A stretch of DNA of 46,410 nt from Planctomyces sp. SH-PL62 (GTDB lineage: Bacteria > Planctomycetota > Planctomycetia > Planctomycetales > Planctomycetaceae). Within the stretch, counting starts at the first letter, position 1; every line of letters starts with the position of its first letter. The notes under the pieces were generated by a model, which saw nothing but the letters and a program-made list of their open reading frames with translations, made no database searches and had not been told where the DNA came from. The position numbers were made by a program, and so were the translations under genes. Shown piece by piece: positions 40,997-44,248 of the stretch. The stretch spans positions 1 to 46,410 of the forward strand of contig CAMDPX010000027.1 in assembly GCA_945905295.1 (NCBI GenBank). The letters are read 5' to 3'.

Positions 40997-43900
40997 ATGC
41001 GAGCTGCTCGCTTTCTGTTAATTGCCGTCGGTGTGCTCATTGCTTGTGCCGCCGTGGAGAGAATCGGCCACGCCGAAGAACTGACCTTCGAGACGCACGT
41101 GCGGCCGATCCTGAAGGCTCACTGCTTCGACTGCCACGGGGCCGAGGAGGAGTTGAAAGGCAAGCTCGACCTGCGACTGGTGCGGCTGATGAAACGTGGA
41201 GGCGAAACCGGTCCCGCCGTCGAACCCGGTAAGCCAGAGACGAGCTTGCTCCTGCAACGGATCAAAGCGGGCGAGATGCCGCCCGGTCCGGCGAAGGTGT
41301 CGGCGCGCGAGATCGCCGTGCTCGAAAAATGGATTGCGGGTGGAGCGAAGGCCGCTCGAGCGGAACCAGCGGAGATCGGCAAAGGGTTGGGGATCACCGA
41401 CGAAGAGCGGGCGTATTGGGCGTTCCGGCCGTTGGTTCAGCCGCGTGTGCCGAGTTCGGATCTGAAATCTGAAATTTCAAATTTGAAATCTCAAATCTCA
41501 AATCTCGAATTGCTGAGTCGCACTCCGATCGACCGCTTCGTTCTCGCGAAGCTGCAAGAGCGTGGACTCTCGTTTGGTCCCGATGCCGATAAAGCGACGC
41601 TCATCAAGCGAGCGTACTTCGATCTCATCGGCCTGCCTCCATCGCGCGACGAAGTGGATGAGTTCGTCAACGATTCCGAACCCGATGCCTACGAACGCTT
41701 GTTGGATCGATTGCTGGCGTCGCCGCATTACGGTGAGCGCTGGGGGCGGCATTGGTTGGATGCGGCGGGCTACGCTGACTCGGACGGCTACACGATCAAC
41801 GATCGGGATCGGCCTTGGGCGTACAAGTATCGTGATTGGGTCATTCGAGCGCTCAACGACGACAAGCCGATCGACGAGTTCATTGTCGAGCAACTTGCCG
41901 GCGACGAATTCCTCAACGGCAAGTTTGGGAACTTGTCGCCGATCGACATCGACCGGCTGACGGCGACCGGATTTCTCCGCATGGTGTCGGACGGTGCCGG
42001 TGATGGTTCGGTCGATCAGGACTTGGCGATGAATGCGGTCATGGCCGACACGCTCAAGATGGTCAGCTCGACGCTGCTGGGGCTGACGGTCGGATGTGCT
42101 CAGTGTCATGACCATCGGTATGACCCGATCTCGCAAGTCGATTACTACCGGCTGCGAGCGATCTTCGAGCCGGCCTTGAATTGGAAGCGCTGGCAGGGGC
42201 GATTGAAGACGCTCTACACCGACGCTGATCGCGCGGCCTCAGCGGCGATTGAAGCGGACGTTGCGAAGGTGGCAACTGAGAAGAACTCCAAGCAAACCGA
42301 GTACATGGCGAAGGCTCTTGAATTGGAACTCGCCAAGCATCCCGAAGAACTGCGAAGCAAGCTGCGCGACGCCTACAACACACCGGCCGACAAACGGACG
42401 CCGGAGCAGCAACAACTCTTGAAGGAGCGACCCAGCGTCAACATCTCCCCCGGCGTGCTGTATCAATACTTGCCGAAAGAGGCCGACGAATTGAAGGGCT
42501 TCGACACGCGCATGGCAGAGATGCGCTCGAAGAAACCGGTCGAGGAATATCTACACTGCCTCGCCGAAGAAGATGGTGAGCCTCCCGTAACCCACTTGTT
42601 CCATCGCGGTGATCATCGCCAACCCAAAGAGGCAGTCACGGCCGCGATGTTGGAGATCGCGACGCCACCCGGACAACGCGTCGAGTTCCCGGTCAACGAT
42701 CCGTCGATCAATTCCTCCGGCCGTCGTTTGGCCTTCGCCAAGCATCTCGTCAGCGGTCGCGATCCGCTGTTTCCACGAGCGATCGCCAATCGCCTCTGGC
42801 TGCACCACTTCGGCCGAGGTCTCGTCAACACGCCAGGCGACTTCGGCCAACTTGGCGAACGCCCGACGCATCCGGAGTTGCTGGACTGGCTGGCAGCGGA
42901 AGTCGTAGGTCAGGCTTTCCAGCCTGACCCAACGAAGCCCGAACCGGTCAGCCTGGAAAGGCTGACCTACGGCTTCAAGCGTCAGCATCGCTTGATGATG
43001 ACCTCAACAACCTATCGCCAATCCGCAGCGCGACGGCCAGAACTCGAAGCCGTCGATCCGAGCAATCAGCTCTTCGGCCGCATGAGCGTGCGGCGACTGG
43101 ATGCCGAAGTGCTGCGCGATCGAGTGCTCGCCAGCAGCGGGTCGCTCCAACAGGTGATGTTCGGCAAGCCGGTTGCCGTCGCCGAGGATTTCGTAGGGCA
43201 AGTCATCGTCAACGACACATCGCGCCGCAGCATCTACGTCCAACAGAAGCGGAGCAAACCCGAAACACTGATGCGAGCCTTCGACGCACCCGTCATGGAA
43301 TGCAACTGCGACAAACGCCCGACCTCCACGGTCGCGACGCAATCGCTGATGCTCATGAATAACGAGTTCGTGCTGAAGCAAGCCTCGCTGCTCGCCGAAC
43401 GAGTTCGTCGGGAAACCGTCGTCGAATTGCCTTCGGCGAGCCAGAGGGCGTTAGCCCCTGGACAAGATCGCGACGGTCCGGGGGCTGACGCCCTCCGGGT
43501 CGCCGAACTGCCGCCACGACCAAGCGACCTCTGGCAGATCGGCTACGGTGAGTTCGACGCCTCGACGAAGCGGACGAAGTCATTCACGAAGTTCCCACAT
43601 TGGACCGGCTCACAATGGCAAGGCGGCCCCATCATGCCGGACCCGCAAATCGGCTGGGCCTTCCTGCACGCATCCGGAGGCCACGCCGGCAACGATCAAC
43701 AACGCTCCCCCATGCGCCGCTGGACCGCACCGCTAACCGGCATCGTTTCAATCACCGGCAGCCTGCATCACCCCAGCGAGAACGGCGACGGCGTCCGCAG
43801 CCGAGTCATCTCCAGCCGCAGCGGACTCGCCGGTGAATGGATCGCCGAGCACAAAGCCGTCGACACCAACATCGCCACGATCGAAGTGCAGACTGGCGAC

Positions 43901-44248
43901 ACGCTCGACTTCATCACCGATTGCCGCGAGTCGGTCACGTCCGATTCATTCGCCTGGTCAATCACGATCAAACTCAAAGCGGCCGACGGCAAAGAAGTCT
44001 CCTGGTCCGCCGACAAAAGCTTCCCCGGACCACCACCGCCATCACTGGCTCATCAAATCGCGACCGCCTGGCAGATCGCCTATCACCGACCAATCACCCC
44101 CACCGAATTCGCCACCGTGTGCGGATTCTTCCGCCAGCAGTTCGCGACCTTGTCCGCATCACCCACAAATGCCGATGCCGAATTGCAGGCGCTGACGGAC
44201 TTGTGCCAAGCTATGCTGAGTTCCAATGAGTTCTTGTACGTTGATTGA
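40997..44248 (+). CDS. Exported PSCyt1-DUF1549-DUF1553 protein carrying three repeat insertions
   Basis: This 1083-residue protein has a signal peptide, then a PSCyt1 cytochrome-like domain with CFDCH (43-47). DUF1549 follows with TPIDRFVLAKL and a second haem-type motif CAQCHDHRYDP, and DUF1553 with ANRLWLHHFGRGLVNTPGDFG and MTSTTYRQSA. Near the C-terminus, about 190 residues (roughly 838-1025) form an extra beta-sandwich-like segment splitting DUF1553 from its usual end (LCQAMLSSNEFLYVD). Three stretches derive from interspersed repeats: about 155-171 (family D), 636-659 (family A) and 813-837 (family B). The frame is intact. It is the likely partner of the DUF1501 gene downstream. Confidence 0.9.
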   Translation: MRAARFLLIAVGVLIACAAVERIGHAEELTFETHVRPILKAHCFDCHGAEEELKGKLDLRLVRLMKRGGETGPAVEPGKPETSLLLQRIKAGEMPPGPAKVSAREIAVLEKWIAGGAKAARAEPAEIGKGLGITDEERAYWAFRPLVQPRVPSSDLKSEISNLKSQISNLELLSRTPIDRFVLAKLQERGLSFGPDADKATLIKRAYFDLIGLPPSRDEVDEFVNDSEPDAYERLLDRLLASPHYGERWGRHWLDAAGYADSDGYTINDRDRPWAYKYRDWVIRALNDDKPIDEFIVEQLAGDEFLNGKFGNLSPIDIDRLTATGFLRMVSDGAGDGSVDQDLAMNAVMADTLKMVSSTLLGLTVGCAQCHDHRYDPISQVDYYRLRAIFEPALNWKRWQGRLKTLYTDADRAASAAIEADVAKVATEKNSKQTEYMAKALELELAKHPEELRSKLRDAYNTPADKRTPEQQQLLKERPSVNISPGVLYQYLPKEADELKGFDTRMAEMRSKKPVEEYLHCLAEEDGEPPVTHLFHRGDHRQPKEAVTAAMLEIATPPGQRVEFPVNDPSINSSGRRLAFAKHLVSGRDPLFPRAIANRLWLHHFGRGLVNTPGDFGQLGERPTHPELLDWLAAEVVGQAFQPDPTKPEPVSLERLTYGFKRQHRLMMTSTTYRQSAARRPELEAVDPSNQLFGRMSVRRLDAEVLRDRVLASSGSLQQVMFGKPVAVAEDFVGQVIVNDTSRRSIYVQQKRSKPETLMRAFDAPVMECNCDKRPTSTVATQSLMLMNNEFVLKQASLLAERVRRETVVELPSASQRALAPGQDRDGPGADALRVAELPPRPSDLWQIGYGEFDASTKRTKSFTKFPHWTGSQWQGGPIMPDPQIGWAFLHASGGHAGNDQQRSPMRRWTAPLTGIVSITGSLHHPSENGDGVRSRVISSRSGLAGEWIAEHKAVDTNIATIEVQTGDTLDFITDCRESVTSDSFAWSITIKLKAADGKEVSWSADKSFPGPPPPSLAHQIATAWQIAYHRPITPTEFATVCGFFRQQFATLSASPTNADAELQALTDLCQAMLSSNEFLYVD
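41460..41509. repeat. A/T-rich repeat, family D, inside the DUF1553 gene
   Basis: Tandem TCTGAAATTTCAAATTTGAA-type units in a GC-rich gene, translated as SEISNLKSQISNLE between the PSCyt1 and DUF1549 parts. Same unit as in hpnD. Confidence 0.88.
42904..42971. repeat. Palindromic repeat, family A, inside the DUF1553 gene
   Basis: Arms 42904-42929 and 42946-42971 (CGTAGGTCAGGCTTTCCAGC...) match with two mismatches; the linker is short. Translated as VGQAFQPDPTKP...LERLTYG, it replaces the loop that normally leads into KRxHRLMMTS in DUF1553. Confidence 0.92.
43434..43505. repeat. Palindromic repeat, family B, inside the DUF1553 gene
   Basis: Arms 43434-43463 and 43476-43505 pair with a few mismatches around GAGGGCGTTAGCCCCTGGAC. 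Translated as SQRALAPGQDRDGPGADALR. It lies at the border between DUF1553 and the extra beta-rich segment. Confidence 0.9.

Follow-up and report, generated by a model that had tools for sequence, protein, structure and literature searches.

The stretch of DNA analyzed here (hereafter the window; 46,410 nucleotides (nt), contig CAMDPX010000027.1 of assembly GCA_945905295.1, Planctomyces sp. SH-PL62) contains a gene for a protein with PSCyt1, DUF1549 and DUF1553 domains, within which three different repeat segments are present, all in frame. These are, with high probability, three lineage-specific insertions in permissive loops of the host gene, those at sites 2 and 3 being elements of the type formed by inverted doublets (REPINs) of repetitive extragenic palindromic sequences (REPs) and probably spread by REP-associated tyrosine transposases (RAYTs). 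A sequence-only reading of the window had pointed to the three segments, and its coordinates proved accurate to within 1-3 nt. The source genome of the window (G000), that of a lake planctomycete, is a draft assembly of 8.6 Mb; most of the relatives used for comparison are also drafts, many of them titled as metagenome-assembled genomes. The names of the repeat families (A1, B2, D1, etc.) are our own and were derived from k-mers. The host gene and its segments are located as follows:

40997..44248, plus strand: host gene, 1083 amino acids (aa); PSCyt1 at 43-96, PSCyt2/DUF1549 at 177-392, PSD1/DUF1553 at 576-809
41459..41512, plus strand: site 1, tandem heptamer array (D1), 54 nt, translated DLKSEISNLKSQISNLEL
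42905..42970, plus strand: site 2, GTAG-tagged inverted REP doublet (REPIN, A1), 66 nt = 22 codons, VGQAFQPDPTKPEPVSLERLTY
42905..42928, plus strand: left A1 arm at site 2, GTAG tag plus stem-loop
42947..42970, minus strand: right A1 arm at site 2, inverted partner of the left arm
43434..43505, plus strand: site 3, inverted doublet of a GCGAGCC-tagged REP-like repeat (B2), translated ASQRALAPGQDRDGPGADALRVA

Three repeat segments within one gene

Orthologues of the host gene were found in 11 of the 12 genomes of the genus, G000 included, the other ten having 65-90% identity (the G002 orthologue is truncated at a contig end); only G007 had no close match. The comparison of this gene between G000 and G010 gave 0.041 nonsynonymous (dN) and 0.606 synonymous (dS) substitutions per site, i.e., purifying selection acts on the remainder of the gene, and the inserts therefore lie within a working gene.

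The element at site 2 lies in frame inside the PSD1 domain and carries the GTAG tetranucleotide at the foot of its palindrome (GTAGGTCAGGCTTTCCAGCCTGAC), while its two inverted REPs make one larger hairpin (-43.3 kcal/mol, z -9.2). Site 3 consists of two inverted 28-nt arms, also in frame, with a folding energy of -61 kcal/mol (z -9.6). In neither case did any of 200 shuffles fold equally well, so that the two doublets cannot be put down to chance. The A1 family forms a dispersed, high-copy population: its arms were found 164 + 159 times in G000 (≤ 3 mismatches) vs. 0 + 0 times for the reversed control pattern. When 59 genomes were searched with ≤ 2 mismatches, A1 arms were detected in all 12 genomes of the genus, in G019 (another genus) and once in G025, and in none of the remaining 45. 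The tag of B2 is GCGAGCC instead of GTAG, and the term used here for B2 is REP-like doublet instead of GTAG REPIN.

Among the 11 orthologues, A1 occupies site 2 only in G000, G010, and G002. The others, as judged by eye, carry a B1 doublet (G005), half of a B-like repeat (G004), GGTTGAG-type heptamers (G006), degenerate heptamers (G011 and G003), an GTAGTTCCGCC-like repeat (G001 and G008), or a short loop (G009). Site 3 holds B2 in G000, a different GTAG REPIN in G010 and G002, a LARR-type palindrome in G005 and G003, and no insert in six of the 11 orthologues, which makes three palindrome families across five species. Orthologous sites that are empty or filled with other repeats bear out the repeat origin and the insertion proposed by the sequence-only reading. 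It had also stated what would speak against them, namely distant homologues with the same peptides; these were looked for, and the site 2 insert was absent from all 19 more distant homologues (L042-L060). Among the matches listed, at least seven homologues from Verrucomicrobia have about a dozen extra residues at site 2 without the repeat peptide, and the length of this loop is therefore variable elsewhere too.

Site 1 differs in kind from the palindrome insertions. It is an imperfect array of tandem heptamers (unit type AAATCTC/AAATTTG), in frame with the host gene, and it folds weakly (z -2.5; 3 of 200 shuffles were as good). The segment is lengthened in five of the 11 genus orthologues (108 or 129 nt vs. 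90), and in G010 it is shorter than in G000 by 21 nt, the length of three heptamers or 7 aa. The earlier figure of 16-25 added residues is correct for the length of the elements but not for the net gain, which amounts to 13 aa at site 1 (relative to six of the 11 genus members in the alignment), about 18 aa at site 2 (relative to distant homologues, by hand count on the alignment), and 14 or 16 aa at site 3 (against the six empty orthologue sites).

Repeated occupation of the same loops

The G000 genome contains 122 matches to PSD1, and in some ten genes the match is split in two near profile position 57-67. We read 40 PSD1 segments, with 20 loci hand-picked and several of these chosen for a split match, i.e., a non-random set. 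Nine paralogues, counting the window gene, have A1 at the site-2 loop and two have it at another PSD1 loop, either loop holding other repeats in further paralogues. The spacers between the A1 arms differ in all nine. The PSD1 match spans the insert in the window gene and in L163, and restarts past it in L119 and L174.

Ten orthologous pairs could be formed between 18 of the G000 loci and 14 stretches chosen (again not at random) from G010. A1 was found in both species in four of them, in addition to the window gene, in G000 only in another four, and other repeats were found in two. Four G000 loci (L163, L239, L242, and L244) align with G010 orthologues that are free of A1, and at L239 the G010 counterpart is a short plain loop. 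The paralogue C87 was followed through nine orthologues: A1 is present in G000 only, G005, G009, and G003 are empty, D1 occurs in G002 and G001, other heptamers in G004, and the short G006 loop is unclassified; in G007 a different GTAG REPIN starts at the same nucleotide as A1 in G000, after GARTTC. Two PSD1 paralogues of G010 (L336 and L339) were observed to carry a GTAGAC-type repeat, VD(G/E)SLRD(P/S)NSGHGVTGLR, at the loop that holds A1 in G000.

The same pattern extends to another protein and to another genus. In the linker between the domains of a carbamoyltransferase, the repeats differ by species among the eight orthologues that read through (the G006 copy, split over two contigs, was left out of the count). 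As separate observations, a B3 doublet is nested in a NPKRQRG-type palindrome with the frame intact in the G007 linker (L306), and the linker of G010 carries a GTAGAC repeat similar to that of L336 and L339. In G019, five of the six readable paralogues carry arms of a different palindrome (PPLSKGG..PPLLRGG) at the same PSD1 loop, three of them with both arms and two with one; here eight stretches were fetched, mostly chosen for a split match, and the set is likewise not random. The common factor of recurrent insertion is the loop, not the element.

Frequency in genes, reading frames and arm conservation

To see how common such insertions are, the window was combined with 80 sampled stretches, each of 20 kb and lying at the start of a large contig, to a total of 1.646 Mb (19% of the assembly); 1156 genes were called in this sample with our own simple codon model. 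A k-mer survey yielded many repeat families, several of them GTAG-tagged. With 16 repeat patterns, 381 elements were recovered: 214 intergenic, 61 across gene ends, 83 in genes, and 23 at stretch edges. Counted among the 83 are single arms, heptamers, and some calls that are spurious (D2 matches in L132 and native-looking D1 matches in L122 are doubtful); the firm core of this set consists of 43 doublets in 36 genes vs. 121 intergenic doublets. The 83 elements are distributed over 63 genes, 16 of which hold at least two and four of which hold three (one doubtful), so that three insertions in one gene, as emphasized by the sequence-only reading, are indeed uncommon but not unique. If the sample is typical, in-gene repeats number in the hundreds per genome. 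The Pfam search covered 20 of the 63 host genes, with one left without a match; hosts with unambiguous domains include two protein kinases, an SNF2 helicase, a SecA-like ATPase, a 3-hydroxyacyl-CoA dehydrogenase, a carbamoyltransferase, and HlyD and MFS proteins. DUF1549/DUF1553 genes hold 18 of the 83 in-gene elements while making up 4.3% of the coding sequence (p 1.3e-8), and the enrichment persists without the window gene (15 of 80, p 1.5e-6).

The A1 arm is free of stop codons in one of three 5' frames (VGQAFQPD) and in two of three 3' frames, and the element therefore dictates the peptide. The lengths of A1 doublets are divisible by three in 4/4 cases in genes vs. 5/17 elsewhere (Fisher p = 0.02), i.e., the surviving in-gene A1 doublets are those whose length fits. 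Frame selection and elements that encode open peptides, offered earlier as two options, both apply and need not be set one against the other. The five-prime arms of C1 are used in genes in a single frame (9/9), even though their consensus is open in three, which hints that the peptide itself is under selection; for A3 and B1, two of the open frames are in use. When real intergenic doublets were dropped at random into genes in a simulation, the frame was kept open in 15.5% of cases, and in none of the tries for A1, A3, A6, and B3, whose intergenic copies misfit without a small deletion or duplication. The element density in genes is 7-8% of the intergenic density; set against the 15.5%, the scarcity of elements in genes is accounted for largely, though not fully, by the frame alone, with uniform insertion and neutral intergenic copies as assumptions.

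The arms of the elements are strongly conserved. G000 and G010 have five A1 copies in common, one in the window gene and four in paralogues, and the arms of these copies differ at 4 of 240 nt, where about 29 differences were expected at 0.122 per nt, a rate typical of the four paralogues (0.107-0.135); the Poisson probability of this deficit is 7e-9, or 1.5e-7 at the lowest rate. The spacers of the four paralogues' shared copies differ at 20 of 126 nt. At site 2, no nucleotide differs in the 16 arm codons in any pair of G000, G010, and G002. Shared copies were recognized by the presence of VGQAFQPD in both genomes, and copies with conserved arms could therefore be over-represented; among the ten pairs, the printed alignments show no copy that was dropped for a degraded arm. 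The other repeat copies in the window, several of them intergenic, are the following (no strand assigned):

3572..3653: A1 REPIN copy between predicted genes
13800..13876: B2 doublet between two genes
27613..27692: B1 doublet, intergenic, common to G010
33086..33170: B2 doublet in the start region of the minus-strand open reading frame (ORF) 29696-33271
34119..34200: A1 REPIN copy between genes, touching a gene end by 4 nt, common to G010
39194..39275: A1 REPIN copy between genes, touching a gene end by 4 nt, common to G010

In the synteny comparison of sampled doublets with G010, ten elements could be aligned, several sites being occupied by something else in G010; the pooled rates of this comparison, in which shared and replaced elements are mixed, were set aside. 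Three doublets between genes are shared in the synteny of the window. The A1 copy at 34119..34200 has 1 of 50 arm positions changed and 21 of 120 in the flanks, that at 39194..39275 has 2 of 50 changed in the arms and 16 changed plus 2 gapped of 120 in the flanks, and the B1 doublet has 1 of 56 changed in the arms and 12 of 120 in the flanks. That arms might be frozen in coding copies alone was rejected, as these three copies between genes are similarly conserved, and the arm DNA is therefore constrained or renewed wherever it is located. Such near-frozen arms may be kept by selection on the hairpin, by repair against other copies, or by re-insertion. We also rejected the possibility that A3 arms are merely drawn to their family consensus, as the shared copy in L245 retains a non-consensus arm in both species. 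The A3 doublet in the second loop of L245 was observed to be identical to that of its G010 counterpart (L342), with a rare arm variant that has paired, compensatory-looking changes; the variant also accounts for two arms in the sample, which excludes L245, and may represent a small subfamily.

Two further features of the window were noticed. The ORF 29696-33271 that contains a B2 doublet near its start encodes 1191 aa without any Pfam match. Immediately 3' of the host gene (44282-44991), a DUF433 gene overlaps a PIN-domain gene (Pfam E 6e-11 and 2e-16), a pair that presumably resembles a toxin-antitoxin pair.

Transposases, rival explanations and known systems

REPINs are thought to be spread by RAYTs, which are Y1/HUH transposases. 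Y1 genes with pairs of A1 arms on both sides were found in two congeners, G010 (L283, where the arms form doublets) and G007 (L284), i.e., RAYT-like genes flanked by their cognate A1 repeats exist within the genus. In G000, three Y1 genes are flanked by doublets, at two loci by A3 and at one by E1. Five RAYT-like proteins, L283 and L284 among them, have REP_Tyr_transpos (NF047646) as their best NCBIfam match (E 3e-14 to 2e-22), with L283 at E 4e-22 and 78.7 bits and L284 at E 2e-22 and 79.4 bits, both under the cut-off of 80 bits. B3, which is similar to B2, adjoins ORFs with a Y1 motif in G007 (L285 and L290) and a weak Y1 match in G010 (L293; no Y1 motif was found there by the scan). Among the A1 arms of G000, 100 of the 100 places listed are perfect (the best 100 of 323, perfect ones first). 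In G011, the sole member of the genus with no Y1 match, 7 of 66 arms are perfect, as if the family decayed without a transposase.

These observations suggest the following mechanism. The elements at sites 2 and 3 are most probably miniature REPIN-type elements, each with two inverted REP arms and one long hairpin, which land genome-wide, probably through transposition by RAYTs. A copy inside a gene would survive only where the stop-free frame of the element matches that of the gene, where the element, together with any small deletion or duplication, has a length divisible by three, and where it sits in a loop or linker able to take up roughly 13-30 additional residues. Two loops of this sort probably exist in the DUF1553 domain, LDWLA-x(2-3)-[ ]-KRxHR and YRQSS-[ ]-DPENR, and its roughly 100 paralogues would therefore act as a repeat sink. 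A loop that had once been occupied would stay permissive, so that other families could later join or replace the first element by nesting or replacement, and sister species would come to carry different families at identical codons. The inserts are presumably translated and probably near-neutral for the function of the protein. A stronger proposal, in which coding REPINs are a continuing RAYT-driven source of loop variation, with the loops of a large paralogous family serving as docking sites that successive palindrome families enter and leave in frame, frames chosen by peptide quality, and arms that remain, even in genes, under selection at the DNA level as part of the mobile population, appears rather doubtful to us.

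Several observations weigh against RAYT-spread insertion in permissive loops. No A1-flanked RAYT was present among the 13 Y1 matches in the draft assembly of G000, the left pair of A1 arms at L284 is in reverse order, and the five RAYT-like proteins score 53-79 bits, all short of the 80 bits that NCBIfam sets as its threshold. The GTAG tag is missing from B2, and we saw no RAYT flanked by B2. At L239 and C87 the element replaces about 9 nt of the native loop, and insertion there was therefore not a clean transposition, and the C87 copy of G004 has one internal TGA in the search match. The three inserts map to stretches of the host protein that were predicted with low confidence (123-174, 638-657, and 810-834), but the structure prediction is poor as a whole (mean predicted local distance difference test score, pLDDT, of 59.5) and 402 of the 1083 residues fall below 50.

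The inserts could also be positively useful and favoured by selection, either as hairpins that slow ribosomes at domain boundaries or as hydrophilic linkers. The single peptide frame of the C1 five-prime arms, the conservation of the arms as DNA together with their strong folding, and the hydrophilic look of in-gene spacers (by eye) are in line with this. We find it unlikely, given that the three shared intergenic copies reveal a constraint that is not specific to coding copies, that certain orthologues have no insert at site 3 or in the C87 loop and sister species hold unrelated repeats, and that a preferred peptide can reflect purifying selection against bad ones. Target-site specificity, i.e., a sequence motif in the DUF1553 coding region recognized by A1, would account for the codon common to nine paralogues and for the shared starting nucleotide of the two REPINs after GARTTC at C87, and a C is favoured directly before GTAG (65 of 120 A1 arms). 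The 120 arms have no further consensus in their flanks (the longer shared flank of the A4 family is probably part of that element), and the same loop also hosts B1, heptamers, and, in another genus, PPLSKGG, an indication that the loop matters instead of the element, and such specificity is quite unlikely.

One family at one position in nine paralogues might also have come from a single ancestral insertion copied across the DUF1553 genes by gene conversion, which we hold to be very improbable: the nine spacers all differ, the flanks of C87 match those of its own A1-free orthologues, and L163, L239, L242, and L244 likewise align with orthologues of G010 that lack A1. Long-tract conversion between paralogues is unlikely, very short tracts are possible. 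It is extremely improbable that hairpin mis-assembly or over-called ORFs created the pattern, even though the assemblies are drafts or metagenome-assembled, the gene caller was our own, and some in-gene calls look spurious (those in L132 and L122), as the same A1 insert is present in three separate assemblies, the PSD1 match continues through the insert or resumes beyond it, and the flanking codons are under purifying selection. Lineage-specific insertion in permissive loops accounts best for these data. Empty or alternately filled sites in close relatives indicate that selfish hairpin repeats can steadily supply new protein segments in bacteria, a known route from selfish DNA to protein that has been little studied, and orthologous loops with different elements or none, in proteins otherwise under purifying selection, amount to a natural experiment.

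Short tandemly repeated repetitive (STRR) sequences of cyanobacteria consist of 7-nt tandem units, three of which equal seven codons. The array at site 1 is like them, as they are generally described, in its 7-nt tandem units, and is set in frame inside a protein loop. With known REPINs and RAYTs, A1 shares the GTAG tag, the stem-loop, the inverted doublet, more than 100 dispersed copies, and flanked Y1 genes; unlike these, the elements described here include in-frame copies inside conserved genes, with loops re-used by different families, and B2 is without GTAG.

Among the literature matches listed, none described serial in-frame REPIN insertion in planctomycetes, a single loop filled anew from orthologue to orthologue, in paralogues, and across genera, frame statistics of this kind, or conserved arms. 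The available portions of Di Nocera et al. 2013 (PMC3733652) report that REP doublets inside ORFs encode 20-30 aa, with the GTAG type most frequent in Opitutus terrae, that Xanthomonas recB genes hold different REPs at about the same site, that flexible loops or linkers may tolerate intragenic REPs, and that GTAG or CGTC families occur in Planctomycetes. In-frame intragenic REPs of 20-30 residues, the idea of loops, and one same-site case were thus already known from these portions. According to the same portions (PMC3733652), palindromic repeats of Rickettsia (Rickettsia palindromic elements, RPEs) lie in frame in many working genes, and the intragenic RPE-4 and RPE-6 of R. conorii are counted as CGTC type, not GTAG. 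The RPEs resemble A1 and B2 in their palindromic in-frame insertion into working genes, a likeness of behaviour only. As far as our searches show, what is new here is the serial re-occupation of loops, its scale, and the conservation of the arms: where the available portions of Di Nocera et al. 2013 (PMC3733652) give cases by species, the present comparison traces a single loop in orthologous genes, in paralogues, and into a second genus, and adds empty sites, statistics on frames, and the conservation of arms.

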